64,000 nucleotides of DNA from positions 1 through 64,000 of the forward strand of contig NZ_JAURWA010000149.1 in the NCBI RefSeq assembly GCF_030655195.1, written 5' to 3'. The translations under genes and the position numbers were made by a program. Under the pieces are notes generated by a model that ran no database searches, was not told the origin of the DNA, and was given only the letters and a program-made list of their open reading frames with translations. This stretch comes from Patulibacter sp. Its GTDB lineage: Bacteria; Actinomycetota; Thermoleophilia; Solirubrobacterales; Solirubrobacteraceae. Positions within the stretch are counted from its first letter, which is position 1. Each line of letters opens with the position of its first letter. Positions 31,848 through 49,569 of this stretch are shown piece after piece.

Positions 31848-31852
31848 GTGGT

Positions 31853-33097
31853 TCAGGTACCCAGTGCGTGCTCGATCAGGATCGGAACGTCGTACGGGCG
31901 CACGATGCCGATGCGTGTGGACGGGTCGGGGTTGCCGTATCCGGGCTCGACGACGACTCCCTCGGGGCCGACGACGACCGACGTGACGGCGGGCGCGAGG
32001 TCCAGGGCCTCAACGGCGTAGGCGAGCGCCTGCAGATAGCCGCCGCGGGCAACCACCGCAGGCCGGAACGAGTGCTTGCACTCAAGGAGCAGTGCGCTCT
32101 CGCCGGGGCGGATCAGCATCAGGTCGGTGCCGAGCGCACCGCCGGCACCGGGGACGCCGTGGGCGACCTTGGGGTAGAGCTCCTCGACGTCGTAGTACCC
32201 CCAGGCGCCAGCGGCCTCGAACCAGAGGTCCCACTCCCGGTCCTCGTGATCGGTGACCAGGTACGCGGGTCCACGGGAGGAGTCGCCGAGCGGGTGCCGG
32301 GAGACGACGTGCGCCCCTGCGGTCCTGAGGCCGTGGAGGACCTCGCCGAGGACCGCGAGATGAAACAGTCGGCCGGTGAGCTCCGGCGACGGTCCGACGA
32401 CCTCGCGGGCCAGACGCGCGAGCTCTTCGGGGTCACCGGCGGCCTGAAGCGCCCTGGCGACCGGGACGAGCAGTCTCCACGGGTGTCCCTCGGCGGCGAC
32501 GGCGGCGAGGTCGGGCGGTGTCGGCGAGGCGGGCGTGACGTCGGAGAGCGGCTCGACGTCCAGGAGCGTCAGCGCGGCCTTGGCGCGACGGACGGCCTGA
32601 CGGTGGTGGGGGTCGCCAAGCTTCTCGGCGTCCCTGACCAGCGGCACGAGCTGGTCCAGGGTCCAACGCGTCACGGTGCTGAGAAGGGTCTCGGGTACGC
32701 GCCGGCGGTCGCGGCCGACGAACGTGCGCGGTGGCCAGCCGGCGATGCGGGTCCGTGTCCACGACGTCCCCGGACGTGGGCTGCTGGAGCGGTAGTCGCG
32801 CGTCTCGGTGCTGGCGGGAAGCGCGTCGAGCCAATCGCGTGGGTCCTCGGGCCACTCGGCCAGCGTGGTTTGCAGGCGTTCGAAGAGAACACGGCGGGCG
32901 CGCCTGCGGACCATCGAGGGTTTCCAGTGGCGTTCGGCGACGTCGTCGGCGGCGCCGAGCGCTTCCCAGAGCTGCCCTTGGCCGCTCCAGGACCGCAGGA
33001 CCTCGACCAGGCCGCGCTGCGGAATCGGCGGCGGTTCGGGGGTCGACCCGAGGTCAATCAGGTCAGGGTCGAGAGCAGGCTCTCCAGGAACTCCCAT
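31853..33097 (-). CDS. McrC-like PD-(D/E)XK restriction subunit
   Basis: The 414-residue protein has a C-terminal nuclease core: YYDVEELYPKV, GTDLMLIRPGESALLLECKH (D at ~327, E-x-K at ~338-340) and a following QALAYAVEAL helix. The N-terminal ~250 residues are helical with no named fold. It follows an McrB-like ATPase and overlaps it by 40 bases; the ATG at 33097 may be followed by a later real start. In McrBC and in LlaJI/BsuMI-type systems this second subunit supplies DNA cleavage. Sequence outside the nuclease core is diverged from E. coli McrC, so the assignment leans on motif plus context. Confidence 0.65.
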   Translation of the reverse strand: MGVPGEPALDPDLIDLGSTPEPPPIPQRGLVEVLRSWSGQGQLWEALGAADDVAERHWKPSMVRRRARRVLFERLQTTLAEWPEDPRDWLDALPASTETRDYRSSSPRPGTSWTRTRIAGWPPRTFVGRDRRRVPETLLSTVTRWTLDQLVPLVRDAEKLGDPHHRQAVRRAKAALTLLDVEPLSDVTPASPTPPDLAAVAAEGHPWRLLVPVARALQAAGDPEELARLAREVVGPSPELTGRLFHLAVLGEVLHGLRTAGAHVVSRHPLGDSSRGPAYLVTDHEDREWDLWFEAAGAWGYYDVEELYPKVAHGVPGAGGALGTDLMLIRPGESALLLECKHSFRPAVVARGGYLQALAYAVEALDLAPAVTSVVVGPEGVVVEPGYGNPDPSTRIGIVRPYDVPILIEHALGT

Positions 33098-34557
33098 TGA
33101 CCCTCCCCGATCAGCTGCTCGGCGGTCACCACGCGGGCCTTGAACGTGTCGAGCGTCTTCGGCTCAAGCTGGGCCAGCAACGGGCCGGCGCCGAGGAGGT
33201 ACCCCTCGAGGAGGAGCTGCTCGAGGTCGACGTCGCCGCCGAGCGCCAGCCCGCTGGAAACGTAGCCGGGGACCGCAAGGAACAGCGCGGGCCCGACCAC
33301 GGGCTGCAGCAGCCCGAGGTGCGCGGCGTAGAGCCCCTCGACGACCTCCTGGACGCGGTCGACGTTCACGTTGGGCTGCCCCTCGGTCAGCTGGTCGAGG
33401 CGCGGGGCCAGCGCCTCGTGGAACTGGCCGGTGTCGATGGCGGGGACGGGGACGCGTGCGAAGCGACGGCCGAGTGCCTGTCCGAAGCGGAAGACGCGGT
33501 GGGCATCCAGCGCGTTGTAGGTGCCCAGAAGCTTCCAGTCACGGCCGGCTCGGTAGACGATCTCACCGCCGGCGCCGTCGACGAGCCCCTCCGGGTTGAC
33601 GACTTCGTTGTCGGCCTCATCGCTGGGTTCGAGGCGGATCGTGGCAGCGTCGCTGGTGCCGGCGGCCCGCCCGAGGGTGACGGCCCTACCAGAGAGGAAG
33701 GTCAGGAGTCCGCCGAAGATGCGGTCCATGTCCGCGCGGTTGGCCTCGTCGAGGATCAGCCAAGTCTTGTCGCGCACGGCGTCGAGGACGTAGCCGGGCT
33801 TGAACCGAAGGTGCCCTTGGTCGTCGACGGTCTCGCCACCGACGAGCTCGCGACTGGTCCACCCCTCCTCCGGGGTCACCACGAGCGGCGTTCCCTTCGG
33901 CGCGGCCGCGAGCCCGTAGGCCCCCGGGTCCTCCTGCGCATCCTGGAACGCCTCGAGCAGCAGCGTCGTCTTGCCCGTGCCGGGAGGGCCGATGAGCATC
34001 ACGGCGCGCGACGACGCGATCGCCAGGCGAAGCATGCGACGGATCCGCTCGTCGACCACCAGTCGCTCGTGATCGGCGGGCAGCACCACGACGGGTGGTG
34101 GATCGAACTCAAGCTCAACTTCGGTGTCCGCATCGGTGTCGGCCGTGGGGACGACCTCGACGCGTTCGACCTGGTCGTGGTTCTCGCGGAGGCGATCGGC
34201 GATCGTGCCGCCAGCAGGCTCGTAGACGGTCCACGCGTCGACGTCCCTGGCTTCGTGAGGCACGATTGCTGCGACGACGGCCTTTCGTCCCGACTTGGCG
34301 CCGATGATGTTGGGCGCCTCAGCGGCGACTTGGTGCTGCAGCGTCGTGTCGGCGAGAACGACGACGAAGATCGAAGCGTTCTTGTTGCCCTTCTGGACCG
34401 CGCGGGACGCTACGGTCGACGATTTGCCCACCCGAGTGGTGTAGACGATCTCTTCCGGGTCTCCGAGGGCTTCGGTCAGGTACTGACTGAACGGCACCAT
34501 GGCTGGGACGCTCGTTGCCGCTTTGTCTCGGCCAGCCAGAGCCTCGGCGATCTCCAT
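33058..34557 (-). CDS. McrB-like AAA+ NTPase restriction subunit
   Basis: This 499-residue protein has an AAA+ core of the McrB clade: MLIGPPGTGKTTLL (~190), the Walker B segment TWLILDEANRADMDRIFGG (~265), and the sensor-like KLLGTYNALD (~345), which matches the GTMNTAD signature of McrB. It is followed by ALGRRFARV. The N-terminal ~120 residues (IFVVVLADTTLQHQVAAEAP) are probably the DNA-recognition part. McrB motors hydrolyse GTP or ATP to translocate DNA and activate the McrC nuclease. ATG 34557 is chosen because upstream sequence belongs to the methylase gene. It lies 11 bases after that gene's stop, so the genes are co-transcribed. Confidence 0.82.
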   Translation of the reverse strand: MEIAEALAGRDKAATSVPAMVPFSQYLTEALGDPEEIVYTTRVGKSSTVASRAVQKGNKNASIFVVVLADTTLQHQVAAEAPNIIGAKSGRKAVVAAIVPHEARDVDAWTVYEPAGGTIADRLRENHDQVERVEVVPTADTDADTEVELEFDPPPVVVLPADHERLVVDERIRRMLRLAIASSRAVMLIGPPGTGKTTLLLEAFQDAQEDPGAYGLAAAPKGTPLVVTPEEGWTSRELVGGETVDDQGHLRFKPGYVLDAVRDKTWLILDEANRADMDRIFGGLLTFLSGRAVTLGRAAGTSDAATIRLEPSDEADNEVVNPEGLVDGAGGEIVYRAGRDWKLLGTYNALDAHRVFRFGQALGRRFARVPVPAIDTGQFHEALAPRLDQLTEGQPNVNVDRVQEVVEGLYAAHLGLLQPVVGPALFLAVPGYVSSGLALGGDVDLEQLLLEGYLLGAGPLLAQLEPKTLDTFKARVVTAEQLIGEGQWEFLESLLSTLT

Positions 34558-34568
34558 GTTCTTGCAGA

Positions 34569-35771
34569 CTAGAGAGCGCTCATCTTCTTGTGGTGGGCGT
34601 GGAGGGCGTCGATGAATCCGTCGACGAAGCGGAGACGGCCCTGGTCCGCCCGCTTGAGGAATCCCGCGGTGGCGCGCAGCGACAGCGGCTTGGGGTCGTG
34701 GTCGAGGAACGTCTCGAGTGCCGGGCGCTCCCATTGGACGGGGAACGACGAGCGGTCGACCTTCCACGCCTGGCCGTTTTCGCCCCATGCGGCGTCGGGC
34801 CACCGCATTCCGGCGACGATCTCGGTCTCGGTGAGCTCGGGAACCTCACGGGGCTCCGCTAGCGCCTGGCCGAGCCACTTGGCCATCGGCACGGTGACGG
34901 CGTTGCCTACGAGCTTCCAGCGGGCGCCGAGGCGGTGGGGCTGTTCGGGCTGCGCCGCAACGGTCCAGTCGGTCTCGAAGCCCTGCATGCGTTCGGCGTC
35001 GCGGATGTCGGGCGTGACGATCCGTCCGTCGGTCATCCAGATGGCCGGCGGCGACGGGATCCCGATCGTCGAGCCGCCCTTGAGTGTCGGGACCGCATCG
35101 ACGGCCCAGCCGAGTCCCCGGACACCCTCGGTCCAGTAGAAGCCGCACGCGCGGCCGTTTCGCTCGCGCTCCTCGATGACGGGACCGGCCTCGTCGGGAA
35201 ATAGGATCGTCCGCGGGTCCTCCGTGCGAGACGCGAGGAGAACGACCCGTCGGCGACGTTGAGGCACACCGAACGCGCGGGAGTCGACCACGCGGTAGGC
35301 CCAGCGGAACCCCATGTCGCTGAGCGAGTCGGTCAGGAATCTCATCGCCTGGCCGCGCTCGAGCTGCAGCATGAACGGCACGTTCTCGAGCAGCAGCCAC
35401 TTCGGGGTGGTGGCGGGGTCGGAGACGAGCCGGAAGACCTCCCCCACCAGCCCGGACCGGTCGCCGGTGATGCCGGCGGTTCGTCCGGCTTGCGAGAGGT
35501 CCTGGCACGGGAACCCGGCGGCGACCAGGTCGACGTCCCCGAGCGACGGAAGATCACGCACGTCCTCCACGATGCTCACGTCGGGGAAGCGGTCTTCGAG
35601 GACGCGCTTGGCGCCGGGTTCGATCTCGCACAGCAGCTGGCTGTGGTGGCCGGCCTGCCGGAACCCCTCCTCGATGCCGCCAATGCCCGCGAACAGGCCA
35701 GCCACACGCAGCGACTGCCGCGGCTCCGGGAGCGTCTCGGGGAAGGGCAGGGTGGCGGCGAGCGGCTTCAT
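34569..35771 (-). CDS. DNA (cytosine-5)-methyltransferase of the McrBC-like restriction cluster
   Basis: This ~400-residue C5-MTase shows VAGLFAGIGGIEEGFRQAG (motif I), AAGFPCQDLSQAG (motif IV with catalytic Cys), LLENVP (VI), GVPQRRRRVVLLAS (VIII) and WKLVGNAVTVPMAKWLG (X). A C-terminal extension of ~100 residues (WPDAAWGENGQAWKVDRSSF, DHDPKPLSLRATAGFLKRA) is typical of MTases in multi-subunit restriction systems. ATG 35771 is used; GTG 35801 would add ten residues, and neither has a clear ribosome-binding site. It heads the operon mtase-mcrB-mcrC-vsr and is divergent from an EVE-domain gene. It presumably methylates the site recognised by its restriction partners. The target sequence cannot be inferred. 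Confidence 0.92.
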   Translation of the reverse strand: MKPLAATLPFPETLPEPRQSLRVAGLFAGIGGIEEGFRQAGHHSQLLCEIEPGAKRVLEDRFPDVSIVEDVRDLPSLGDVDLVAAGFPCQDLSQAGRTAGITGDRSGLVGEVFRLVSDPATTPKWLLLENVPFMLQLERGQAMRFLTDSLSDMGFRWAYRVVDSRAFGVPQRRRRVVLLASRTEDPRTILFPDEAGPVIEERERNGRACGFYWTEGVRGLGWAVDAVPTLKGGSTIGIPSPPAIWMTDGRIVTPDIRDAERMQGFETDWTVAAQPEQPHRLGARWKLVGNAVTVPMAKWLGQALAEPREVPELTETEIVAGMRWPDAAWGENGQAWKVDRSSFPVQWERPALETFLDHDPKPLSLRATAGFLKRADQGRLRFVDGFIDALHAHHKKMSAL

Positions 35772-35859
35772 GGGAGAGGCCCCGGACGCGGTGCCGAGCA
35801 CCGGATCCAGGGCTGACTGAATCTACGTTCCCTCCCGGACGGCACCCAGAGCTCTTACC

Positions 35860-35877: not shown

Positions 35878-35953
35878 CTCACCTACGCTTGCACGACCGG
35901 CCTCTATCGGCCTCTTGCCGTTTACTGGATCGACACTGACCAACGGAGCGGCT

Positions 35954-36391
35954 ATGAGGAACTACTGGGTGTTCAACATCGGGACGGGGACGGAGGCGCC
36001 GCCGGAGGACTGGATCGGCGTCTGGCGTCATCACACGCAGGAGATGTGGTTCCCCGGCAACCGACGGCCGTCGGGGGTGCGGCCCGGAGACCGCGCAGTG
36101 ATTAACGGATCGCTGCGCCGCGGGTTCATCGCGGTCGTCGAGGTGGCCTCCGAAGCGCCGGAGGTCAACGAGGGCGGCTCCGAGGCGGACCGGCAGCGGT
36201 GGCCGTGGAAGTTGCGCTACCGGGTCCTGGTGGCAATCCGCGCGGATCTTCACGCCCCGTCGCTAGAGGACGTCGAGTGGGAGAACCCGCTGAGGTTGCG
36301 CCGGCAGTCGCACGTGCAAACCGACGAGGCAACCTACACCCGGGTGGCGACCGCCATCGTCGGGGCCGCCGCTCGAGCCGTCCTGACCTAG
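35954..36391 (+). CDS. EVE-domain (PUA-like) modified-base reader
   Basis: The ~145-residue protein is a single EVE domain: MRNYWVFNIGTGTEAP, DWIGVWRHHTQEMWFPGNR, VRPGDRAVINGS, FIAVVEVASEAPEV, WPWKLRYRVLVAIR. EVE folds bind modified bases, including 5-methylcytosine derivatives, and often sit near modification-dependent nucleases. ATG 35954 is preceded by GGAG. The divergent position next to a C5 methylase, McrBC-like subunits and Vsr suggests it reads the cluster's own mark or phage modifications. It contains no nuclease domain, so it probably works as an adaptor. Its stop codon overlaps the stop of the convergent gene. Confidence 0.75.
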   Translation: MRNYWVFNIGTGTEAPPEDWIGVWRHHTQEMWFPGNRRPSGVRPGDRAVINGSLRRGFIAVVEVASEAPEVNEGGSEADRQRWPWKLRYRVLVAIRADLHAPSLEDVEWENPLRLRRQSHVQTDEATYTRVATAIVGAAARAVLT

Positions 36392-36867
36392 GAGGCCTTC
36401 TCGATCGTCCAGTGCGCCGACCTACGCGCCGCGATATCCGTCGAGAAGTTCGCCGGAGCCAGGAGGCCGACGCTCTCCCCGAGCTGCTTGGCGGTGAGCT
36501 CCTCGTTCGCGCCAGCGGGGTCGAACGCGACTACCTCATCCTCGATGCGCGCTGGCGCAAGGACCCGCAGCTGCTCGTTCCTGAACGCACCGGCGGCTTC
36601 GGCTGCCCGGAATCGCTCCTGCCACTCCGCACGGCTCATACGGATCTCCGCCGCCCGGTTCGCGATCTCGACGTCCGTGGAAGAAGCGATGAACGCGACC
36701 TGCCGCTCGGGGTCTGGCTCGTCAGCCGTCCCGCGGCGCTGCTCCTCCCGAGCCGCAGAAAAGCGCTTCAGCTTTACCCTCACAGGCGAGACGGCCTTCT
36801 CGTTCAGCCACCGCATGACATGAGGCGACGCCTTCATGAACGCCAGTGCAGCCAGAGCCACGACCAC
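36388..36867 (-). CDS. Membrane-anchored hypothetical protein
   Basis: The product has ~159 residues and starts at GTG 36867. The N-terminus VVALAALAFMKASPHVMRWL is a probable membrane anchor. The remainder is charged and helical (VKLKRFSAAREEQRRGTADE, IRMSRAEWQERFRAAEAAGA). No family is recognised. It is convergent with the EVE gene, and the stop codons overlap by three bases. Confidence 0.5.
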   Translation of the reverse strand: MVVALAALAFMKASPHVMRWLNEKAVSPVRVKLKRFSAAREEQRRGTADEPDPERQVAFIASSTDVEIANRAAEIRMSRAEWQERFRAAEAAGAFRNEQLRVLAPARIEDEVVAFDPAGANEELTAKQLGESVGLLAPANFSTDIAARRSAHWTIEKAS

Positions 36868-37767: not shown

Positions 37768-38958
37768 CTAGCGGGCTGCGCGGCGGGCCAGTTCCGACAA
37801 CGTAGCCCCGTCAGCCGTGTGTCCATCCGCGAGCACGGCGGAGAAGCCGGTGTCCGGGTTCGCGCGCAAGAACCGGACGCCACTTTCCACGAGACGTTCG
37901 ACTCCGTCACGAAACCCGAGGCGGTTCCGGGGGAAATTCGTCGAAGTCCGAATTTGCACGGCGGATGCTGGCCGAGATGCGTCCGGGCGGATCATTTCGA
38001 GCGCCGAGAGAAGGTCGGGCGCACTCTGACCTTCGTATGCCCAACCCCCGGAGCCGAGCTCGACGGTCCAATCTGAACCCGTTAGAGCAGCGAGTCGGGC
38101 TTGGTGCTCACCGGCGACCCAACGGGTCCAAAGTTGTCGAGCTGCCGACGGGACGAGGCCGACTGGTGGATCCGTCAGAAGGCTCTTGACGGCCTCAACT
38201 GCCGATTCATCGCCCCAGCTCGCCTCTAGCCACAGGGTCCCCCCGTCGCCTTCGATCAATCCAGGGGGCAGCGATCCAGTTCCGTCCATCACTCCAACGA
38301 GGGCTCGAACTCGGTCATCCACGCCTCTGATGCAGAAATAGCGTTCGCAGTCAGCAGCCGGCAGCACGTACTGCCAACCCGGGGGCCACTGCACGTTGTT
38401 GCGTTCGAGCGTGACGCACTCCTCTGCAGGAGCGACCAGGGGCATCAGACGCTTGTCGCCTCGCTTCTTGAGCCGCTCAGTCAGCGCCTCGGCGGTACTC
38501 CCTGTACCGCCGAGCGTCCGAACCAAACGTCTCCACGCGTCTCCGCGGACGACCGAGTCAGAGGGGTCTAGACCTGAGCTCCAGAGCAAGGTTCCCAACG
38601 CATCGCCGTGGTCGACTTCGGACGTCCGGCGGACGACTATCGAGTAGCGATCCTCCCGAAGAACGAGGAAGGCCAGGTCGTCGACCTTCATCTCGAGCCA
38701 ACTCATCGGCTCGTCGATTGATCCGCCAACGAACCCAGTGGGAGCCCACTCCAGAACGAGTCGATGGGGTGGCCCGTTCCCGGACCAGCGCAGCAGGCGC
38801 CGTTCCCCCGGCTCCACTGCGAGGGCCTCTGCGATCGACCGCGGCAGTTGCCATCCGGGCTTGCCTTTGAGGATGAACTCATTGACCTTCAACCGAAAAG
38901 CCCACCCTTCTTCGAGAAGGAAGCAAGTGCTGAGATCACCGATCCAGCGAAGTGCCAT
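37768..38958 (-). CDS. Unknown 396-residue protein, fourth gene of the kinase/HerA operon
   Basis: No named domain was recognised. The N-terminal ~110 residues look beta-rich (MALRWIGDLSTCFLLEEGWA, LVLEWAPTGFVGG, DDLAFLVLREDRYSIVVRR). The middle has CVTLERNNVQWPPGWQYVLP and the C-terminal third includes TLWLEASWGDESAVEAVKSL. The start ATG shares a base with the stop of the HerA-like gene (TGATG), so it is translated with it. Nothing like it is a standard part of MADS, BREX or Dnd as I know them, so it may be the defining accessory, for example a recognition or inhibitor subunit. That is speculation based on operon position. Confidence 0.65.
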   Translation of the reverse strand: MALRWIGDLSTCFLLEEGWAFRLKVNEFILKGKPGWQLPRSIAEALAVEPGERRLLRWSGNGPPHRLVLEWAPTGFVGGSIDEPMSWLEMKVDDLAFLVLREDRYSIVVRRTSEVDHGDALGTLLWSSGLDPSDSVVRGDAWRRLVRTLGGTGSTAEALTERLKKRGDKRLMPLVAPAEECVTLERNNVQWPPGWQYVLPAADCERYFCIRGVDDRVRALVGVMDGTGSLPPGLIEGDGGTLWLEASWGDESAVEAVKSLLTDPPVGLVPSAARQLWTRWVAGEHQARLAALTGSDWTVELGSGGWAYEGQSAPDLLSALEMIRPDASRPASAVQIRTSTNFPRNRLGFRDGVERLVESGVRFLRANPDTGFSAVLADGHTADGATLSELARRAAR

Positions 38959-41900
38959 CAGCCCTCGCCCACAGCCCGGATCGTCCCGCCACCGTGCCGA
39001 GTGAGCCGTGGCCGCATGACGACTCGCTGCGGGCGCCGGAACATTGCGTCACCGCCACTCGAATAGACGAACGCCTCGCCCGGTGCCAGTTTCGCGAGCT
39101 GAGGGGAAGTTACGTCGCTCGCGAACCCGGAGTTGACCTTCTTAACGTGGTCCAGCCATTGCGGGCTCATGAAGCGATGTGCCACCACTACGGACGAGAG
39201 CTCGATGACCTCTCTCGGTACCGACGGCGGGTTCTGCGAGGCGATTACAACGCTCGTCCCCTTGTGGCGCATCTCCCGAATCGACTCGACGATTGCGCCC
39301 GTGAGACGTGGGTTGTCCATGTACTTGTGGGCCTCGTCGAAAACGACCAGGCGGTTGAATCGCTTCCCGGACGAGTCGCGACCTTGCGTGAACGCCCGGA
39401 GCAGGACCATGAACAGCGCGAGCGCCTCGTCTTTCTCCATGAACGGGTCGCGGACGTCGACGATGACGAGACGGCCCGGCTGCACCAGGTCCGTGACGCC
39501 CCCCGAGTCGGAAACGAACTTCGCGACGAAATCGAGGCGTGTCTCGGCGATGTTCTTTTGAGAGGCCGTTAGGCGACTATTAGCGATCGCATCCCTGAGA
39601 CCCTTGAGGGACAAGTCGTTCCTCAGCCCCTTCAACAGTGTAGTGATGGTCTTCACGTACATCTGGTCACCCCCTTCAACACCCATGAGGAGCTTCCAGT
39701 CGTTCACCACCAACTCATCGGGGCGCAGAAGCAGAGGATGCACCGGCAGTCGACCTCCGAACTCGGCGTGGCGCTCTGTCGTGAGGTCGCTTGGGACGAC
39801 AAGATGGATGTCTTCGATCGGTCGCGGCGCGGCACCCATCCCTCCGAGCTCCGCGACCTGTGCCTCCGTTGCGTTCGCATCCACCATCGATGCGAACTCG
39901 GGGAGATACGTCTGGTCCGTGGAGAAGTGAAAGACAACGACTCCGAGGGGGTTCGACAGCCGATGGAGAGCCGGCTCGCGCATGAGCGCCGCTTCGATCA
40001 CATTCCCGACCGTGTAACTCTTTCCCGCGCCTTGTACACCGAAGATCGAGATGACGTTCGTCCCATCGACGTCGATTGCCACAGGCCGACCGGTCGCAGC
40101 GTGGCGACCTACGACGCCGTACTGCTCGCTTTCAAGGGCCTGGCCAATCAGAGCGACGTCTGCTGGCTCGGGACCTTCGGCCGGCGGTACCGGAGGCAGC
40201 GTCTCCGACTCATCGACCTCGGGGTCGTCCTCGGCAACGGGCACGAGGATAGGGTGCGGCGTAGGGCGCTCAATCCTCCTGACCTCGCGCACCTCCGCGA
40301 GCGCCGTCGACTCAAGAATGCTCGGCTCATCAACCTCCAGACGGGCCGAAGGGATGGTCTGCAGGCGTGTGGGGGCCGAGTCCAGCATCCGCAGAACGCG
40401 CGCGCGAGAGACTCGGTGCACCGCCACCCTGTCAAAGGTCGTCTCTTCGTCCTCGCTCGTGTCCCCCAAGTCGAACACAACGGCATGCATGACGAACTGG
40501 ACGTCGAAGCCCTTATCGAGCGACATGATCAAACTTCGAGCGCGCGCCGCGTCTGCAGCCGCCATGTGCTCATGCCTCGTCGCCCGATCCAGGTACCGGG
40601 ACAGCAACCTGCTCAACCTGCGCGTTCTCATCGCCGACACCAACTCAATCTGCGGTCGGTCGGACATACCGAAAAGCGTCGATCCGAGAACCATCAGCGA
40701 GTTGTTCAGCTGCGCTGCGATCCCGTCGAGGAACGCAGCCGGGAGAGTCCCGGGCAAGTCCTTCCGAGCCTTTACCTCGACCAGGTGAACTTCGAGACAG
40801 CGCGCATCTGCACGCGGGCGGACAAGAGCGAGGTCCGTACGGCTGAGCGCCTCGACGCCTGCGGACCCGAGCTCAAGTTCTTCCCTGAAGAGGTCCTGAT
40901 GCAGATCGAGAGGAACGACCAACGCCTTACGCAGGATCCCTTGGGCTTCGAGGTGAATGCCCGCCAGGCCCAGGGAGACAGCCTCCAACGCATGGGTTGG
41001 GGCACTGAGAAGGCGCAGCGCAAGTCCGGGATTCAACGCGTGCATCGAATCGAGGAGCGATTCGACGCGCTCCGACGACGCAGATAGACCGTAGGCCTCT
41101 AGGGCAGGCCGGACGAGCTCAGTGAGTTCGAGTCTAGATCGGGTCGAGACAACGATGTTCCGCGTCGAATGGAGCGGTTCCCGCTCTTCTGCGTCGATCA
41201 AGTAGCGGGGGTTGTCCTTCCCATCCTTCTCCGAGTCGAGAAACTCCTCGGTAAAGACAGGGTCCAGGACTAGCACCCAGTCCGAGGTCCGATGTACTGC
41301 GTCGAGCACAGCTCGTTTGACGCGTCCCAAGCGCAACCGAACAGCTGGCACGGTGCCGCCCGCGTCTGCGCCGAGGAGCTCCGCCGTGGCAAGCGCACCA
41401 CCGCGGTACGCCGCCGCAAACGGATCGTCCGAGTCCGGTGTGACGACGTGCTCGTCCCACTGCGGGTCAATCCCATTCCCGCCAGGGCGGAAGACCACGA
41501 CTGGATCAATCAGAACACCGCCGGCGAAGAAGGATCGACGCTCGCTCAGCGGAGGGACCGGTACTGCGTCGAGCTCGAACCAGTCGACGAAGACGCTGAG
41601 GTGCGCGGGAAAACGCTCCGGGGCTTCCGCAAGCGTCGAGAGTTCGTGTTTACTGTAAGTCAGTTTCGGGGCGAGCACATCGCCCGAAGACGACACGAGC
41701 GCGTCAGCTGCGTCCTTGTTCTTTGCGCGGGCCGACTCCGGCTCGGCCATGAACGCGTCGAGTGCAGCGCCCGTCGCGGAACGCTGAAGATCGGCTGCGA
41801 ACAACCGGACGACGAACCGCACGTCCGCGGTCCTCACATCCGCTTGGAGAGCCAGCAGGACCTCAAGAATGAGCGCTCCGTCTCCGGGTTGGACGACGTT

Positions 41901-44045
41901 GAGCTGCAGCGTCGAGACGTAGGGGTGAGTGCTGAGGTACCGGCGGACCCTACGCACGATCTCCTCGGGGGCGATACCGCCGAGTCGCCTCTGGTTACCG
42001 ACCAGACGACGTCGTATCTCGGCCACCCGCGGGGCGATGTTCGAACTAGACGGCGGAGCCCACAAGCCCCATTGCAGCGAGAGGGACTCGAAGAAGCGCA
42101 GCTCGCGCCCACCGACGACGATGACGTGAGGAACGTTCTCGGGGCCAAGGCTCGAAGCCAACCGTACGAGCCGTTCACAATCGCTGTCGTCGACATCCTC
42201 TACCTCGGCCGCCTCAAGAAGCTGCTGATGATGGCGGACGAGCCACAGGAACCGAAGTGGATGGAACGGTCCGACGAGAACGAGTTCCGAGGCCGCGTCG
42301 AGGCGTACCTGATCAAGTCTCAGCAGGGCGCGCCGCGTAACCTCATCCGACTTCTCGAGTTCTGAGCGCCACGCTTCCGCGTAGGCAACCGCTGCCTCCT
42401 GCACTTCGCGGAGGTCTGCGGTCGCCAAGCAGATAGGGACGTCGTCGCCGACAAGCAGCTGGTTGCTTGACACCGCTCGGGCGACGGCCTCTCTAGCGTC
42501 GAGGAAAGCTGACGGGAGACCGTCGATGGTCTCATCAGCCACGATGGTTCCGTCGGGGTCCAGACGCCAGTTGATCGGGTCCCGCGGATCAGAGAGCACC
42601 ATCTCTTCGACGCGGGCGAGGGGCTTCGGTACGAGCATCCGAAACGATCCTGGCGCTCCGTCAAATCTCATAACAAAATCGTGAGCCAGAGATCCGGCCG
42701 CCCCCTCCGCTGGCCGGCTGTAGGCGACGTGCGGCATTCCAACGGCCCCCCCTGCGGCGCGGCGGGCTCGAACGGAGGCCTCCGCCATTCCGCCGACATC
42801 TGCCTCAATTGGCGCGTCGCCCGGATCAGCTTCCTTTACTACGAACGCCTCGCTCTCAGCCTCCTTCTGGACGAAGTTGTCTTCGTCAACGGCCTCCACG
42901 CGCAAGACATACGTGCCGGGGTCGAGGTCGTCGACGTCGAGCTTCACACTCCAGGTCAGATCCCCGCCGCGGCCGAGGGAGGTGACCGCCTTACGCTTTT
43001 GGATGCCAACGTCGATCAAGGCATTCGATCGCTCCGGCCGATGCATCACATACAGCCGCAGGTGGCTCAGGCCCGAGATGGACTTCGGCGGCGGAGTGCA
43101 ACGGATCGACGCGGTGATCTTCGGCTGTCCGCCTCGAGTTGTGGGGGGATCCAGATCGTGGTCCAGATCCCCCTTCAGCCCAAGGAACATCAGCTGGCTT
43201 ATGGACGCGGCCGCAGCCTGCTTCTCGATCAACCGTGTGGCGGGAGCGTCTGCAAGCTCGTCCGCGAGCCCGCGCGCGACATCCCACCGGTCCGGCGAGG
43301 CCTGCTCAAGTACACCTAGGAGGCTCCTCCGATCCTGCTCGCTCTCGTCGTCGTCACTCTCGGGGAAGACGTTGCGGACTCGATCCGCGGCCGCCTCAGG
43401 GGTCGCGAGTCGCTCCATCTGCTGAAGGTTCCGTCGCAGTCGCGACGGAATCTCCTCTTCGGGCTCATCGACCAGGCCGCTGTCAGGGATCAAACCCAGG
43501 GCCGACATTGCCTTGCCGAGACCTTGTGCATTCGGCCTGCTCAGGGCGTCGCTGGTGAAGCGGGCGACAGCTTTTTCGGAGACGCCGAAGTCATTTCTCC
43601 GGAGGACCTCCCGCGCGACGACTTCGACCGTCTTAGCGAAGACTGGGTCGACCTCCGTGAGCTTGAGGCTCGCCTGAGCACGGGCGTCCTGGTAGAGGGT
43701 CGACGTGTCGATCACCTCGAAAGTCGTAACCCCGAAACTGTCCTCGACTGGCAGCTGACTTCCCGCCGGAATCAGCACGACAAGCTTCAAGCCCGAAGTT
43801 TCGGATTCATTCCGGTGCTCGACAACCTTGGCCGGCGCCGCGTGCCATGGCTTCTTGGGGTTGGCGGTGACGAGGCAAAATCGCTCGTCGCTTCGCGCAT
43901 CGTCGTGCAACCGCTTGGCTACCTCTTCGGCCAGCTTCGCTGGGATGTGCGGGACCTGGGCGCAATGCCCCGGACCGCGCCGAGCGACGACGTCGCGAAT
44001 GCGCGACGCCAGCACGTCGATGAGTGTGTCCTCGAAACGACTCAT
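38958..44045 (-). CDS. Giant HerA-like ATPase (MAD8/DptH-like)
   Basis: The 1695-residue protein has ~1290 residues of mostly unrecognised sequence, including a beta segment near residues 300-400 (LRLYVMHRPERSNALIDVGI) that may be Ig-like. The C-terminal HerA/FtsK-type ATPase follows: Walker A IFGVQGAGKSYTV (~1338), the Walker B segment NRLVVFDEAHKYMDNPR (~1570), SVVIASQNPPSVPREVIELS with a sensor-like motif, and a C-terminal CTP-like closing segment. HerA family motors pump or scan DNA as hexamers. Size and C-terminal ATPase match MAD8 of the methylation-associated defence system and DptH of Dnd restriction; I cannot choose between them without a search. It is coupled at both ends (ATGA at 44042-44045, TGATG at 38956-38960). 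Confidence 0.78.
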   Translation of the reverse strand: MSRFEDTLIDVLASRIRDVVARRGPGHCAQVPHIPAKLAEEVAKRLHDDARSDERFCLVTANPKKPWHAAPAKVVEHRNESETSGLKLVVLIPAGSQLPVEDSFGVTTFEVIDTSTLYQDARAQASLKLTEVDPVFAKTVEVVAREVLRRNDFGVSEKAVARFTSDALSRPNAQGLGKAMSALGLIPDSGLVDEPEEEIPSRLRRNLQQMERLATPEAAADRVRNVFPESDDDESEQDRRSLLGVLEQASPDRWDVARGLADELADAPATRLIEKQAAAASISQLMFLGLKGDLDHDLDPPTTRGGQPKITASIRCTPPPKSISGLSHLRLYVMHRPERSNALIDVGIQKRKAVTSLGRGGDLTWSVKLDVDDLDPGTYVLRVEAVDEDNFVQKEAESEAFVVKEADPGDAPIEADVGGMAEASVRARRAAGGAVGMPHVAYSRPAEGAAGSLAHDFVMRFDGAPGSFRMLVPKPLARVEEMVLSDPRDPINWRLDPDGTIVADETIDGLPSAFLDAREAVARAVSSNQLLVGDDVPICLATADLREVQEAAVAYAEAWRSELEKSDEVTRRALLRLDQVRLDAASELVLVGPFHPLRFLWLVRHHQQLLEAAEVEDVDDSDCERLVRLASSLGPENVPHVIVVGGRELRFFESLSLQWGLWAPPSSSNIAPRVAEIRRRLVGNQRRLGGIAPEEIVRRVRRYLSTHPYVSTLQLNVVQPGDGALILEVLLALQADVRTADVRFVVRLFAADLQRSATGAALDAFMAEPESARAKNKDAADALVSSSGDVLAPKLTYSKHELSTLAEAPERFPAHLSVFVDWFELDAVPVPPLSERRSFFAGGVLIDPVVVFRPGGNGIDPQWDEHVVTPDSDDPFAAAYRGGALATAELLGADAGGTVPAVRLRLGRVKRAVLDAVHRTSDWVLVLDPVFTEEFLDSEKDGKDNPRYLIDAEEREPLHSTRNIVVSTRSRLELTELVRPALEAYGLSASSERVESLLDSMHALNPGLALRLLSAPTHALEAVSLGLAGIHLEAQGILRKALVVPLDLHQDLFREELELGSAGVEALSRTDLALVRPRADARCLEVHLVEVKARKDLPGTLPAAFLDGIAAQLNNSLMVLGSTLFGMSDRPQIELVSAMRTRRLSRLLSRYLDRATRHEHMAAADAARARSLIMSLDKGFDVQFVMHAVVFDLGDTSEDEETTFDRVAVHRVSRARVLRMLDSAPTRLQTIPSARLEVDEPSILESTALAEVREVRRIERPTPHPILVPVAEDDPEVDESETLPPVPPAEGPEPADVALIGQALESEQYGVVGRHAATGRPVAIDVDGTNVISIFGVQGAGKSYTVGNVIEAALMREPALHRLSNPLGVVVFHFSTDQTYLPEFASMVDANATEAQVAELGGMGAAPRPIEDIHLVVPSDLTTERHAEFGGRLPVHPLLLRPDELVVNDWKLLMGVEGGDQMYVKTITTLLKGLRNDLSLKGLRDAIANSRLTASQKNIAETRLDFVAKFVSDSGGVTDLVQPGRLVIVDVRDPFMEKDEALALFMVLLRAFTQGRDSSGKRFNRLVVFDEAHKYMDNPRLTGAIVESIREMRHKGTSVVIASQNPPSVPREVIELSSVVVAHRFMSPQWLDHVKKVNSGFASDVTSPQLAKLAPGEAFVYSSGGDAMFRRPQRVVMRPRLTRHGGGTIRAVGEG

Positions 44046-45580
44046 GCGACGGTGAACCTAGGGCGGACGAGCTGCGCCACGAATGCATCGGACAAATCTT
44101 TGAACAACCCGGTCTCACGCAACCGTGCCTTGAACCGATCGACGTTGCTGGCTAGCACCCTTGCCACCTCGAAATCGTTCTGAAGCGCGACGGGGGAAGT
44201 GGCGATACACAGGCCGTACCGGCGCTCAAGGTGGGTGATGAGCTCGTCGACTCGAAGCGGCTGAGTATGGAACTTTCCATTACTCCGTTGGACCAGCGCC
44301 ACGAGAGTCAAAGTCTCGAGGAGCCCCGCTCCCATGGCGGCGCGGCGGCGACTCCTGCCTCCCAGCGGCTGACGCAGCATTCCGTTCGCGGTGTTCTTTG
44401 CCATGAGCGAGTCGAGCAACTGCCGGTGGTAGCCAACCCAGTTGTTTGCTTTCAAGGCGACGAGCAAACCGTGGTACGTCCTGAACGGGCTCATTCCGAG
44501 GGATCGATACTCGTCAACGAGCCGCTCGAGTTCGGTGAGATTGTCTTTGTCCTTCGCATTGTCCTGCAGCAGACTGTCCATCTGGGCTTCGAAGTACGCG
44601 TCGAATCTCGGTCGGTCGCCCTCCCGCTCACTCGAAGCGAGTTCATCGATCGACTCCGGCATGGCCACGCCTCGCTTATGTGCGGCTTCTGCATACTGGT
44701 GAAGCTTCTTAAGGGCCATATGGGCCTGAACGTAGCGCTGGAGGGTTTCATCTCGGACCTGCCACGACCGCTCCGCCAGCTTGGCCATTTCCGTTCCCCG
44801 GTCTTCGCCGAAGTCCACCACGAGATCGAGAATCGGATCCTCCGCCGGCGCGGTGCCGTGGTCGTCGACATGGGTGACTATCTCGGAGATCGTCAAGAGA
44901 TCGAGACCGAGGTGAAAACCGGTGAGACGTTGAAGGTGCGCGATCAAGGACATCCGCGGCATCTCGTCTCGGTAAGCGATCAGACGACGGACGTCATCTG
45001 CGTAGAGCCTGGCCCGCTTTGACGACAGGGGCCGAGGCGGCACGGGCACTTCGTCGTTTGGTTTTGCCGCGAGGTCCGGTGCGTACCTGTCGCCCAGAAG
45101 GGATAGAGCAAGGGTCACGATGTCCGAGTCGCCTCCATCAGAGCTGGCGATCAGCTTGCGGAGATCTTTGAGCACTCCTTTGTCCTCGTGCCACAGCCAG
45201 CCGTAAACGGCGAGCGAGGCGTTCGAGTCATCGGAATGTTTCGTTGTGCTCCGAAGACGGATTGCCTCTGCGTGCAGCGGGCGGGCGACAGAGTACTGAG
45301 TGGGATCTCGCTTTAGGGGGCGTACGAGGTCGGCACGTAGCCACGCCTCCGCTGCCCCAAGATCGAAATCCGAGAATACGGCCGCATCGGAATTGTTCAT
45401 CTCCTGTGCCAGATCCGCGATCGTCTTGAGAGGCACGGTCCTCCGCACGGGCACACGGTTGTCAAGGAGAATCCGCAGCCAGAGCTGCGTGAGCAGTGGG
45501 TCCCAGCCCACCGCGCGGACGTCTACGGGGGTGATGAACTCAAGCCGGAACTCGTTGTGGGGCTTACGAAGGACCGTCAT
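44042..45580 (-). CDS. Unknown 512-residue defence-operon protein (MAD7-like by position)
   Basis: The protein is helical and begins LRKPHNEFRLEFITPVDVRA. The C-terminal part has GGRSRRRAAMGAGLLETLTL followed by RVDELITHLERRYGLCIATS, a combination seen in ~500-residue proteins that sit between a kinase and a HerA-type ATPase in defence operons. There are no catalytic motifs. It is coupled by ATGA overlaps to both neighbours (45577-45580 and 44042-44045), so the three should be made in fixed proportion and probably form one complex. The MAD7 comparison rests on size, order and the C-terminal pattern; DptG is the alternative. Confidence 0.65.
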   Translation of the reverse strand: MTVLRKPHNEFRLEFITPVDVRAVGWDPLLTQLWLRILLDNRVPVRRTVPLKTIADLAQEMNNSDAAVFSDFDLGAAEAWLRADLVRPLKRDPTQYSVARPLHAEAIRLRSTTKHSDDSNASLAVYGWLWHEDKGVLKDLRKLIASSDGGDSDIVTLALSLLGDRYAPDLAAKPNDEVPVPPRPLSSKRARLYADDVRRLIAYRDEMPRMSLIAHLQRLTGFHLGLDLLTISEIVTHVDDHGTAPAEDPILDLVVDFGEDRGTEMAKLAERSWQVRDETLQRYVQAHMALKKLHQYAEAAHKRGVAMPESIDELASSEREGDRPRFDAYFEAQMDSLLQDNAKDKDNLTELERLVDEYRSLGMSPFRTYHGLLVALKANNWVGYHRQLLDSLMAKNTANGMLRQPLGGRSRRRAAMGAGLLETLTLVALVQRSNGKFHTQPLRVDELITHLERRYGLCIATSPVALQNDFEVARVLASNVDRFKARLRETGLFKDLSDAFVAQLVRPRFTVA

Positions 45581-48500
45581 GCCTCTGCTTCCATTCTCAA
45601 GGTCGCCTGACCGGGCTCCCGGACCACTCGGAAGAACTCACGGTCGTCGCGAGAGAGCAGCAGCGCATTCGTTGGTAGCGCTGCAAGCTGATCCTTAAAA
45701 ACCCTCAAGTTCAGCCACGCCCCCTGCATCTCGGCGCGAGACGGCACGAACCCGTCGTTGATGCGGCCGAGTGTTTCGAACAGGTCTAGGTCTATCTCAA
45801 GCACGGCCGAGGGATGTTCCGTGTAGTGCAGCAACAGAGTGTCAGGCGCGTACTCCACGAAACCAGCACTCTCCCGCTCCTGTTTGATTGTCAACGCAAA
45901 GGACGTCGCCTGGTGCAGCACGTAACTACGGTCCGAGCCTCCCACCTCGGGGGCAAGGCTGATTCCGAGCGAGCCGGCGAAACGTTCGTTGTAGAGACCT
46001 TCGCTGTGCGAGATCGCTCGCACGACTCGGTCTCGAGCGGCATCGTCGACTCCTTCGAGCAATGCCTCGAACTCGGTGAGGCGACGGTGCGGAAACATCG
46101 ACGCCCAGGCGGACCCCTCAAGCGTCAGGAAGCGCAACCGCCGCAGACCGCCGTGGACGAACTGGACGAACGCGATGTCCGTTATCTCGCCTGACCTGAC
46201 CGACTGCCGGAGCTCGTCGAGCATGAGTGCGTGCCCGTCGGGTCCGTCCGCTCCGGAGGAGCATCCGGCGTCAGAGCCCAGGGCCCAAGCGCGCGCATCC
46301 TCGGGTGGGTCAGTCGTCGTCGTTCCGACATCGAGAGCGCTCAAAGCAAACATCAACCTGTCGCGGGGTGCGGCCGGGTCGCCGAGATGCGTCACGGTCG
46401 GTGAGGCTCCGAACAACGCATTCGAGAGATGTCCCGCCACGAGTTGCGCAGTAGCCTGACTGTCGCTCTCGTCACTCCTTCTCACCAAGTCAACGATCTC
46501 GTGACACGGTCGGTTTCCGACAGTCATAAAGGACAGTCCGGACCGGAGATCACGCATCGTGATGTGCAACCGCCTCCGGAGCCGCACCACGTCCAGCGTC
46601 TGGCGAATTCGTTCGGCTGCACGTGGTCCGGACACGGGGTCACTGAGAAGTGAGGCGTTCGCACGGGCGTAGCAACGGTCCTTCGCAACGCACGTCACGC
46701 ACGCGGACCAAAGCCGAGGGTCACTGAACCGCGCGATCGTGGCGCTCACGATGTCGTTGCTGAACTCATCTGTCGCCAGGGTCAGCGCCCTTAGGTTGAG
46801 GTTCACGACTAGCAACCACTCTTCGGCGCCCGAATCTTTTCCCTGGAGGACATTGTTGATCGCGGCGCTCAGTGCCGGGAACTTCGCGCGGCGTTGCGCA
46901 TCAGAGATGAAGTCGAGCAGCCGGCCCTCGTTGATCGCGATGAGCTTCACCAGATCGCCTGTTGGCGCAACCTTTTCGCCCGCGAATGGACGGAAAAAGT
47001 GCTCAAGCACTTCATCGTTGGCCTCGCCACCCTCGTCCTGGGATCCGTCCCAGTTCGTCTCGAAGATGCGGCCGTCGAGATCTGACGTGGTGCCGTTCCC
47101 CGCATCCCTCACCGACTGGTCGGCACCTCGTTCCCTGAGGCGCCGCTCCAGCGTCTGGATGAATGCCGTTTTGCCATCACCGGCGTTGCCGGTGATCAGC
47201 ACAAGTCGGTGCTCACCAGCCTCGACGGCTTGAGTGAGCTGGTCGTCGATGGCCGTCGGAACATAAGTCCAGTGCCCGAAGTCGTCTAGTCCGCGGGTCC
47301 CCGCGTTCGACGTCCGACTCTGGCTGAACAGCGCGTTGATCTCATCTCGGTAGGGATTGTGGTTCGGGCTGTCGGACGTGCGGCTGGGCGGGTCCGCCCT
47401 GATCAGCTCACCAGCCTTGACTGAGCCCACGGCGTCCACGAAGGCGGCCGCGAACGCCCCCGCGCTTCGGAAGCGCTCCTCAACGGCTCCCGTCGCCCGT
47501 TTCAGCACTCCGACGAGTTGCCCATCGAGCGGTACACGATCAAGCCAATCGGGCAAAGCGGTCACGCCAACCCGACGCCCAGCCATCATCTCGCAGGCAG
47601 TGACCGCCAGCATGAAGACGTCCGTTCCTTCCGACCACCCTGTCTCGCCAATGTCGGGCGGGGTGTAGTCCTTGGTTCCGATAACCGTGGTCCCGGCCTC
47701 GGCAGTCTTGGCCGAGATGTTGAAGTCAACAAGCACCGGCCGTCTATCGAGACGCATGATCACATTGGCCGGCTTCACGTCACGGTGAAGAAGCGCGTGA
47801 TTGTGAAGGTGATCGAGTGCAGATGCCAGCCGTTCGACGACTTCGGCCGTCCGCTGAGGAGAGAAGCGCTGTGCGTTCAGGGTGTCCAGTAGCGATTCGC
47901 CGACAACCCACTTCGTCAGGAGGAACTTCGTTCGCACGTGAAATTCAGCGGTACCTCGTCTGTACGAGTCGAGCGTGTCAATGAACCTGGGCAATGCCAG
48001 GTTCGGGTGGTCTGGAACATCCCGGGCTCGCTGATATTCGGTCTGGATGTCGACCCCTTCGACGCCTTCATGCCGCTCCTGCAGGAACTTGGCCGCAAAG
48101 TCCTCCGCCGTCTCAGGGTCTGAAACCCGGTAGACGTGGGCGATTCCACCGGATGCAACGGAAGAGCGCACGACGTAGCGGCCTTTCAGCACGTCGTTCG
48201 GCAGCAAGTTGTCGATCACGCCAACAGAGGCAGCCCGCCGGCCGAGCCCGCGCAGTTCCTGGAGGAACGCGCTCGCACTAGGCAGCCGGTCATCAGGGTC
48301 GTCCGCAAGGGCCTTCTGAAGCACCTCCCGCAGACCCTTCGGAACTTTGCTCCAGATTGGGTCCCCTCCATCGGGGCGGGCCCCGAAAAGTTGCAGTCCG
48401 ATCTCGGCGGCCGACCAGACGTCTGAGGCGGCGGTAGCGCGGTGAGCCGCCCCGCGAACCTCCGGGGCAACAAAAGGACCAGTGAGATCCGCCGAAAGGA

Positions 48501-49569
48501 ACCTGCTTACCGATGGGTTCTCGGGTAGCCGAGCAAAATCGAAGTCTGTCAGCACGACCCGACCGTCCGCCAAGACGTGACAGCTCGCGGGCGTCAACCG
48601 TCGGTGCACGATCCCTAGCCCATGCACCGACGCGACCGCCGTGAGTATCGCTTCGAGCAGATCCTCGGCGTCGTCGTCGTCAAGATCTGTGGAGTCAAGC
48701 CGCGACTCGACTGTAGGCCCGGAGGGCCATTCGGTTACGACAATCAACGAGTCCGACGTCTCGTCCACGTTGTTGACGATCGGGACGACGCCGTCTGCGC
48801 CGGCGAGGGTGATCAGAGCGTCCAGGTCCCTCCGCGCCTTCCGAAGCTGTCCTTCGCGCTCGTCACCGGTCGCTAGGGCATCGAAACGAAACCGCTTCAG
48901 CCGAGCGATAGGTGCGTTCGGCCCGATGATCGTGTTCCGTGCCGACCAGATCTCCCACGATTCCGCCTCCTCGATCAGCTCCAAGAGCTGCCACGCCCCT
49001 ACGCGGTCACTCGGCGCAATCGGGCGCGCGTCTCTGGTCAAGGCATCAACGGCCTGATCTATGGCGTGAGACTCCGCGCGCGGAAAGCCGGGAGCGCGCG
49101 GGTCGGTCTTCACCGCTTGCAGTAGGTCAGCGGTAACGGTCACGTCGGCGGACGTCCTGCCCTTGATCTGAGGGCGAGTGTCCGAGACCACCACAACCAA
49201 CGGCTGAATCTGAATGTTCCCGCAGGCTGCAGAGACGGACCTCATCCATGTCGCGAGCTTCTTCGCGTTGCGCCGAACCATGTGGACGGGGTTCGGGACG
49301 TAGTAGAGGCCGGCGCCCTTGCCGAAGACCGAAGGCATCTCCCATTGCGAGTCGTTCCCGCGGATTGCGCCCACGAGAGCCTTGACTTCAAGCAGATACG
49401 CCCAGCCCTCCGGGCTAACCACAAGGGCGTCGCACTCGGGCGGCTTTCGGCCGTGTGGAATCTCGAAGTTCGACACCACCACCCATCCATCCGGGAGGTC
49501 GCGGAGAACGGCCAGGACGGTTCGCTCACCGTCATTGACCGGCTCGCCCAGCTCAATCAGCTTTGCCAC
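45577..49569 (-). CDS. Multidomain NERD nuclease / pseudokinase / Ser-Thr kinase / P-loop ATPase (MAD6/PglW-like)
   Basis: The protein has about 1330 residues. Domains in order: NERD (residues ~15-105; ECDALVVSPEGWAYLLEVKA gives D...E-x-K); a first kinase-like domain (~215-430) whose catalytic loop reads HRRLTPAS and whose DFG reads DFD, so it is probably dead; a second kinase (~460-730) with ASGGIAHVY, AAKFL, LLHRDVKPANVIM and DFN, likely active; then a P-loop region with LITGNAGDGKTAF (~800) and ~500 further residues including a CVTCVAKDRC cluster. NERD-kinase proteins include BREX PglW and the MADS kinase MAD6; the ATPase part recalls DptF. GTG 49569 with GAGGA upstream is preferred over ATG 49608. 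It heads the four-gene operon and may sense or signal infection by phosphorylation. Confidence 0.82.
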   Translation of the reverse strand: MAKLIELGEPVNDGERTVLAVLRDLPDGWVVVSNFEIPHGRKPPECDALVVSPEGWAYLLEVKALVGAIRGNDSQWEMPSVFGKGAGLYYVPNPVHMVRRNAKKLATWMRSVSAACGNIQIQPLVVVVSDTRPQIKGRTSADVTVTADLLQAVKTDPRAPGFPRAESHAIDQAVDALTRDARPIAPSDRVGAWQLLELIEEAESWEIWSARNTIIGPNAPIARLKRFRFDALATGDEREGQLRKARRDLDALITLAGADGVVPIVNNVDETSDSLIVVTEWPSGPTVESRLDSTDLDDDDAEDLLEAILTAVASVHGLGIVHRRLTPASCHVLADGRVVLTDFDFARLPENPSVSRFLSADLTGPFVAPEVRGAAHRATAASDVWSAAEIGLQLFGARPDGGDPIWSKVPKGLREVLQKALADDPDDRLPSASAFLQELRGLGRRAASVGVIDNLLPNDVLKGRYVVRSSVASGGIAHVYRVSDPETAEDFAAKFLQERHEGVEGVDIQTEYQRARDVPDHPNLALPRFIDTLDSYRRGTAEFHVRTKFLLTKWVVGESLLDTLNAQRFSPQRTAEVVERLASALDHLHNHALLHRDVKPANVIMRLDRRPVLVDFNISAKTAEAGTTVIGTKDYTPPDIGETGWSEGTDVFMLAVTACEMMAGRRVGVTALPDWLDRVPLDGQLVGVLKRATGAVEERFRSAGAFAAAFVDAVGSVKAGELIRADPPSRTSDSPNHNPYRDEINALFSQSRTSNAGTRGLDDFGHWTYVPTAIDDQLTQAVEAGEHRLVLITGNAGDGKTAFIQTLERRLRERGADQSVRDAGNGTTSDLDGRIFETNWDGSQDEGGEANDEVLEHFFRPFAGEKVAPTGDLVKLIAINEGRLLDFISDAQRRAKFPALSAAINNVLQGKDSGAEEWLLVVNLNLRALTLATDEFSNDIVSATIARFSDPRLWSACVTCVAKDRCYARANASLLSDPVSGPRAAERIRQTLDVVRLRRRLHITMRDLRSGLSFMTVGNRPCHEIVDLVRRSDESDSQATAQLVAGHLSNALFGASPTVTHLGDPAAPRDRLMFALSALDVGTTTTDPPEDARAWALGSDAGCSSGADGPDGHALMLDELRQSVRSGEITDIAFVQFVHGGLRRLRFLTLEGSAWASMFPHRRLTEFEALLEGVDDAARDRVVRAISHSEGLYNERFAGSLGISLAPEVGGSDRSYVLHQATSFALTIKQERESAGFVEYAPDTLLLHYTEHPSAVLEIDLDLFETLGRINDGFVPSRAEMQGAWLNLRVFKDQLAALPTNALLLSRDDREFFRVVREPGQATLRMEAEA

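Follow-up and report, generated by a model that had tools for sequence, protein, structure and literature searches.

A probable diverged MAD6-MAD7-MAD8 operon with an orphan fourth gene in a Patulibacter genome

How might a restriction operon spare the DNA of its own host when the genes that usually mark that DNA are not found beside it? This question is raised by four genes, here called p1 to p4, in a 64,000-nucleotide stretch of Patulibacter sp. (NCBI RefSeq assembly GCF_030655195.1, contig NZ_JAURWA010000149.1, positions 1 to 64,000; hereafter the window). We consider it likely, on the basis of observed homology, domain order, retained motifs, gene overlaps and profile searches in which the usual marking genes did not turn up, that p1–p3 are a diverged MAD6-MAD7-MAD8 restriction module, a kinase-fused form of the F-G-H set of proteins, to which p4 would add an accessory or regulatory fourth subunit. 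MAD names follow NCBIfam and PADLOC, and L011, L012, L014, L031, L054, L085, L136 and similar labels denote the loci that were compared.

The four genes form an operon on the minus strand in the order p1 (MAD6/DndF-type, 45577..49569, 1,330 amino acids (aa)), p2 (MAD7/SspG-type, 44042..45580, 512 aa), p3 (MAD8/DndH/SspH-type, 38958..44045, 1,695 aa) and p4 (family unassigned, 37768..38958, 396 aa). As an initial annotation of this DNA had noted, the genes overlap by one to four bases: p1/p2 and p2/p3 each share 4 bases at an ATGA, and at the p3/p4 junction (TGATG) the ATG of p4 overlaps the p3 stop by 1 base. The p1 frame is open throughout 49611–45577 and could encode 1,344 aa; the GTG at 49569, which the initial annotation had chosen, is the better start, as MADS relatives start at the aligned residue. 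All four frames are uninterrupted across 12 kb, with catalytic motifs retained. Chance is ruled out for the p1 and p3 frames by full-length co-linear homologues at 24–33% identity, and for p2 by its match to the MAD7 profile over its full length.

The domain make-up of p1 agrees with the four modules first read from its motifs (residues are numbered in the 1,344-aa frame). A NERD nuclease domain of the PD-(D/E)XK type (residues 26–141, 49189..49536; Pfam PF08378, 3.4e-15) retains D61 and EVK (residues 75–77) in the alignment with relatives. The Pfam protein kinase family matches at 2e-38 in two stretches, the best of them (480–680) coinciding with an active-looking Ser/Thr kinase (approximately residues 473–680, 47572..48195) with the motifs HRDVKPAN and DFN. 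The upstream copy (approximately residues 240–460, 48232..48894) has HRR in place of HRD and DFD in place of DFG and looks dead, a pseudokinase. The remainder is an SspF/DndF core (45577..47391) with the Walker A motif GNAGDGKT, a VVNLN that we read as Walker B, and three cysteines (C971-C974-C980). GNAGDGKT and NLNLR are invariant across the p1 alignment, the choice of the Walker B strand being a reading, and Pfam finds a P-loop weakly at about 792–829 (AAA_16, 1.7e-4, under its cut-off). Searched on their own, the C-terminal 604 residues match SspF at 8.2e-20 and DndF at 4.2e-8. Whole p1 scores 323 bits against NCBIfam MADS6 (cut-off 460) and is called mad6 by PADLOC; the PglW profile matches residues 39–680 at 1.4e-36 (126 bits, cut-off 990). 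The same fusion occurs in four MADS relatives of 1,379–1,391 aa in the p1 alignment, and we rejected the idea that it is unique. Because it has full-length co-linear MAD6 relatives and matches the MADS6, SspF and DndF profiles, p1 is an ordinary MAD6-type fusion.

For p2, NCBIfam MADS7 gave 333 bits (cut-off 410) with the model covered from position 1 to 529 of 529, PADLOC called mad7, and the SspG profile matched at 3.4e-9; Pfam had no match at an expectation value (E) of 0.1. Its structure model reached a predicted local distance difference test score (pLDDT) of 85. The assignment of p3 draws on the MADS8 (93 bits, cut-off 175) and PADLOC mad8 (1.5e-30) profiles, on alignment and on trees. 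PADLOC HerA also matched p3 (8.5e-10), and Pfam gave weak HerA/AAA matches under cut-off. Its HerA/FtsK ATPase (38979..40109) has Walker A GVQGAGKS, Walker B VVFDEAHK, R1590/R1593 and Q1604. A putative restriction endonuclease (REase) motif (40770..40835; D1071...E1090-V-K1092), a motif reading only, keeps D, E and K unchanged in five homologues. We read MAD6-7-8 as a DndFGH/SspFGH-like F-G-H module that carries fused kinases; the NCBIfam and PADLOC profiles and the alignments likewise bear out the relationship with MAD6-7-8, PglW and Dnd/Dpt FGH that the initial annotation had proposed.

If p1–p3 are such a module, its relatives should indicate what usually accompanies it. We queried one genome per species from 84,980 species with a MAD8 alignment and analysed the best 80 of 309 relatives. 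MAD6 was visible in 74 of these 80 loci and was accompanied by MAD7 and MAD8 in all 74, the loci having been picked by MAD8. The fetched DNA held a MAD2-like methylase in 68 of the 74 MAD6 loci and a homologue of MAD2–5 or a specificity protein in 71 (in L035, a 95-aa specificity fragment at a contig edge). The remaining three, L031, L054 and L085, also carry methylases, and none could be kept as methylase-free: in L031 and L054, N6_Mtase and specificity genes stand further upstream, separated from the module by other genes (the methylase gene ends about 13 kb and 11 kb from MAD6, respectively), and in L085 two D12 methylases and one N6_N4 methylase precede the module. This last locus (L085:416-8409) has a variant MAD6, an 890-aa frame from the kinase onward with no NERD match, and its D12 and N6_N4 enzymes replace MAD2 and MAD5. 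In the Actinomadura MADS loci L101 and L102, extra genes stand between MAD5 and MAD6, one assigned to AIPR by Pfam and others read as XRE, DUF262-like and ATPase genes.

Loci outside these 80 gave the same picture. Four plasmid records found with p3 encode full-length co-linear MAD6 and MAD8 at 24–33% identity; one of them, L011, is over the NCBIfam cut-offs for MAD2–MAD7 and counts as a reference MADS. A methylase and a specificity gene were present in all four plasmid loci, three viral contigs and two same-phylum genomes, the same-phylum search having found 3 of 396 genomes, its own included. Among 399 genomes of the class, p3 was found in its own genome alone, and a p3 scan of viral contigs found none. 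An SspH family search matched 383 of 396 genomes, matches that we read as FtsK-type ATPases. The window locus is the sole exception seen among the loci surveyed, and no second example was found of the four-gene set without MAD1-5, whose conservation in other genomes would, according to the initial annotation, have supported a new system.

Profile searches of the Patulibacter genome itself for the marking genes were empty. A MAD2-class methylase (PF02384) was not found there, whereas 13 of 14 control genomes were positive and the profile detected MAD2 of L011 (1.1e-29) and L014 (4.3e-33). A specificity domain (PF01420) was found neither in the genome (9 of 14 controls positive) nor between p1 and p4; the case for a missing MAD5 is the less secure one, as this profile detects three MAD5-type proteins at 5.6e-5 (L011) to 2.7e-18, and a diverged MAD5 could escape it. 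The N6_N4_Mtase profile (PF01555) found nothing in the genome (11 of 14 controls positive), nor did that of DndC (TIGR03183; 5 of 14 controls, none over cut-off). The operon has no MAD1, MAD3 or MAD4, genes for which a genome-wide search was not made. The genome, in 198 contigs, is 94.94% complete. The marking genes are thus likely to be absent. The initial annotation had called the locus methylase-free, which holds for MAD2-class enzymes in this genome but not for cytosine methylases, as a Dcm gene (34569-35801) lies on the same strand, starting 2 kb downstream of p4.

This Dcm bears on a different explanation, in which p1–p3 cut unmarked DNA and the host is protected in trans by 5-methylcytosine, made either by this enzyme or by a Druantia-type Dcm (DruM, 21688-22782). 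Both methylases lie within the window. A same-phylum locus, L136:5415-15599, carries Dcm, a kinase-less SspF, SspG, SspH and Vsr in a single gene run, and the kinase-fused F-G-H genes of L085 follow two D12 methylases and one N6_N4 methylase, so related modules adjoin different methylases. However, each window Dcm has partners of its own. The first belongs to a minus-strand run (31443-35801) with an AAA ATPase (AAA_5, 33058-34803), a 414-aa protein (31853-33097; a possible nuclease motif by eye, no Pfam or PADLOC match) and Vsr (31443-31847), a run that we take to resemble a restriction system of the LlaJI/BsuMI type. The second sits in a Druantia-like set (13042-22782) with a DruE helicase (1,324 bits) and a DruF-like protein. 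In addition, some 900 bases that hold no clear gene, together with an opposite-strand open reading frame (ORF), separate p4 from Dcm; the small ORFs in between lie at 35915-36391 (plus strand; EVE/PUA-type by eye, no Pfam or PHROGs match) and 36388-36867 (minus strand). Composition also speaks against the link: G+C content at third codon positions (GC3) is 0.81–0.89 in the Dcm-Vsr genes and 0.69–0.75 in p1–p4, a difference from which we conclude that the former were probably acquired separately. We regard protection in trans as unlikely.

Phylogeny places the module apart from the actinobacterial MADS in the trees. A MAD8 tree of 85 rows gives the window an end branch of 2.64, longer than any other (the median is 0.21), at a highest identity of 35%. 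It stands next to a clade of 41 rows (support 99) in which actinobacterial and proteobacterial MADS are joined by those of several further phyla, and a tree of the joined F, G and H columns concurs (support 97). Forcing the window among seven actinobacterial MADS rows, a group named after the tree was seen, was rejected by the approximately unbiased (AU) test (p 6.4e-7). Both trees were made by a quick method and came with warnings that branches were long and residue composition uneven; we are unsure of the exact place, and also of the F-G-H root, the outgroup branch being very long. Judged by these trees, p1–p3 sit together on a single long branch, next to a large MADS clade but outside its actinobacterial part.

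Such a branch, together with the marking genes that were not found, speaks for a degenerate remnant that has lost MAD1-5 and is decaying or serves only as a suicide effector. By contrast, no frame is broken across the 12 kb, the catalytic motifs are kept, and recent loss from the seven actinobacterial MADS that were tested is unlikely, as the window is not nested among them. We regard a remnant as a very doubtful explanation.

The locus also departs from its relatives in its fourth gene. Pfam, PADLOC, NCBIfam and PHROGs assigned p4 to no family, the best Pfam match having an E of 0.32 and the best PHROGs match an E of 0.04 across 15 residues. Plasmids gave no match, phages two at E 4 and viral contigs none, and the best PDB sequence match had an E of 1.9. 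Among 61 relatives p4 was present in its own genome only, and the best 80 of the 309 MAD8-picked loci held no match at E 0.001. A search of the 399 class genomes, limited to four scored candidates in each, returned 11 matches at E 0.01, namely p4 itself and ten partial ones (E 1.2e-4 to 0.008; 48–116 residues), all of which we took as chance. Five of the ten were inspected and had apparently ordinary gene surroundings with no listed frame above 921 aa, two of the five contigs being just 4.4 and 7.7 kb; the weak matches in G527, G560 and G521 are best described as a frame beside an IspF-like gene.

That p4 is a real gene is supported, with less certainty than for p1–p3, by its 1-base overlap, its coding score (0.163 bits per codon with a codon table from p1–p3, the best of six frames; antisense mirror 0.071) and its GC3 (0.69), which is closer to p1–p3 (0.73–0.75) than to the flanking genes (0.81–0.89 and 0.93–0.95). 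The last two figures refer to the Dcm-Vsr genes and to three plus-strand genes that look like RecC, RecB and RecD (RecD alone was tested). Little weight can be put on composition, since GC3 is also 0.75–0.79 in the Druantia genes and in an OLD-like AAA ATPase gene of the window (10663-12603; weak TOPRIM match; MAD3 28 bits, cut-off 420); p1–p4 are not sharply distinct from the Druantia genes.

In 36 of 84 loci, all from Bacteroidota, a gene similar to a PP2C-like gene of L012 overlaps or abuts the MAD8 stop; the L012 protein (17576-18241) is Pfam PP2C_2 and the sole member tested with Pfam. This arrangement suggests that a PP2C-type protein is a natural partner for the MAD6 kinase. It also bears on the proposal of the initial annotation that the locus is a new stand-alone defence type, in which p4 would replace the modification module, since a partner does occur in that slot elsewhere; the separate deep branch in the trees also fits that proposal. 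However, p4 is known from a single genome with no homologue to show conservation, three of the proteins match MAD6, MAD7 and MAD8, and both the F-G-H core and the kinase fusion, the latter present in four relatives, are already in print in the available text of PMC10853773. We regard a new type, too, as very doubtful.

Several observations weigh against identifying p1–p3 as a diverged MAD6-MAD7-MAD8 module with p4 as its fourth subunit. The profile check that the initial annotation had proposed matched p1–p3 to MADS6, MADS7 and MADS8 in NCBIfam and PADLOC, but all three scores are under the NCBIfam MADS cut-offs and p4 is without a match. The DndH and SspH profiles match p3 weakly (0.065 and 0.0015), and of the five PDB sequences that the MAD8 profile picked up at E 0.01 (TdpA, HerA and related proteins) none is 7ES4, the DndH ATPase structure according to PMC12839542. 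Foldseek found no PDB match to the p2 model at E 0.001, and the triple winged helix-turn-helix fold published for DndG was not recovered. The p4 model is unusable (pLDDT 38), so that membership of p4 is argued from the overlap, weak coding statistics and composition, with neither a homologue nor a usable model. Finally, only one example of a methylase-less locus is known, and with 198 contigs and about 95% completeness a methylase could have been missed.

If p1–p3 are nevertheless the diverged module that we favour, what would keep it from harming its host? According to Wang 2021 (PMC8092258), protection was lost when sspF, sspG or sspH was deleted singly; phosphorothioated DNA is spared by SspFGH, which harms cells without the mark; and DndFGH without its mark triggers the SOS response. 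An F-G-H operon without marking genes must therefore be restrained otherwise. We infer the following steps, and the part of p4 in them. p2 would bind DNA and recognise a target; p3 would translocate through its HerA/FtsK motor and cut through its PD-(D/E)XK domain; and the P-loop core of p1 could sense nucleotides or link assembly to ATP binding. The pseudokinase-kinase pair, together with NERD, may control when the response is released or serve as a further effector, possibly a suicidal one. Host DNA might be spared by keeping the complex off until kinase or P-loop sensing, or p4, licenses it, or alternatively through cytosine marking by an enzyme from another part of the genome. The specific proposal that kinase signalling and p4 together keep the complex off host DNA, so that a protein switch, with no DNA self-mark by methylation or phosphorothioation, tells self from non-self, seems to us quite unlikely as it stands. 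A natural F-G-H operon for which no cognate marking genes were found nonetheless makes the stand-alone FGH proposal of PMC10853773 directly testable, and with four genes the role of the fused kinase or of p4 in host safety can be addressed.

Four known systems come closest to the locus. PglW of BREX type 2 shares NERD, pseudokinase and kinase with p1, but the C-terminal part of p1 matches SspF/DndF rather than PglW; the PglW score is under cut-off and the N6_Mtase class (PF02384) was not found in the genome. SspFGH has a P-loop F, a G and a translocase-like H, and its F and G profiles match p1 and p2; however, SspF models of 525–607 positions are too short for NERD and kinases, and SspFGH pairs with phosphorothioation genes, of which DndC (TIGR03183) was not found here. 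Kinase-fused DndF, as described in the available text of PMC10853773, resembles p1 in domain order, in Asn at the Walker B that we read and in its Cys cluster, and DndH in the same source resembles p3 in its REase motif and in the Q sensor and Arg finger of the HerA domain. A subset of DndF proteins carries NERD with an inactive and an active kinase (PMC10853773; PMC12839542, consulted in part), and DndFGH has been argued to be stand-alone and often decoupled from its phosphorothioation partner (Rakesh, Aravind, Krishnan 2024, PMC10853773, likewise in part). However, the profile scores lie closer to MADS and SspF than to DndF, and the available text of PMC10853773 makes no mention of a p4-like gene. 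MADS shares the MAD6-MAD7-MAD8 order, tight coupling, lengths and homology of three proteins; the window differs in having no adjoining MAD1-5, no MAD2-class methylase found genome-wide and an extra fourth gene, with p1–p3 under the cut-offs on a long branch of their own. The F-G-H core and the kinase fusion were already known from PMC10853773. What is new, as far as we searched the literature, is a lineage of kinase-fused F-G-H nearest MADS in which no marking genes were found and whose fourth gene is an orphan. We see in it a variation on a known defence, found in one genome, rather than a new kind.

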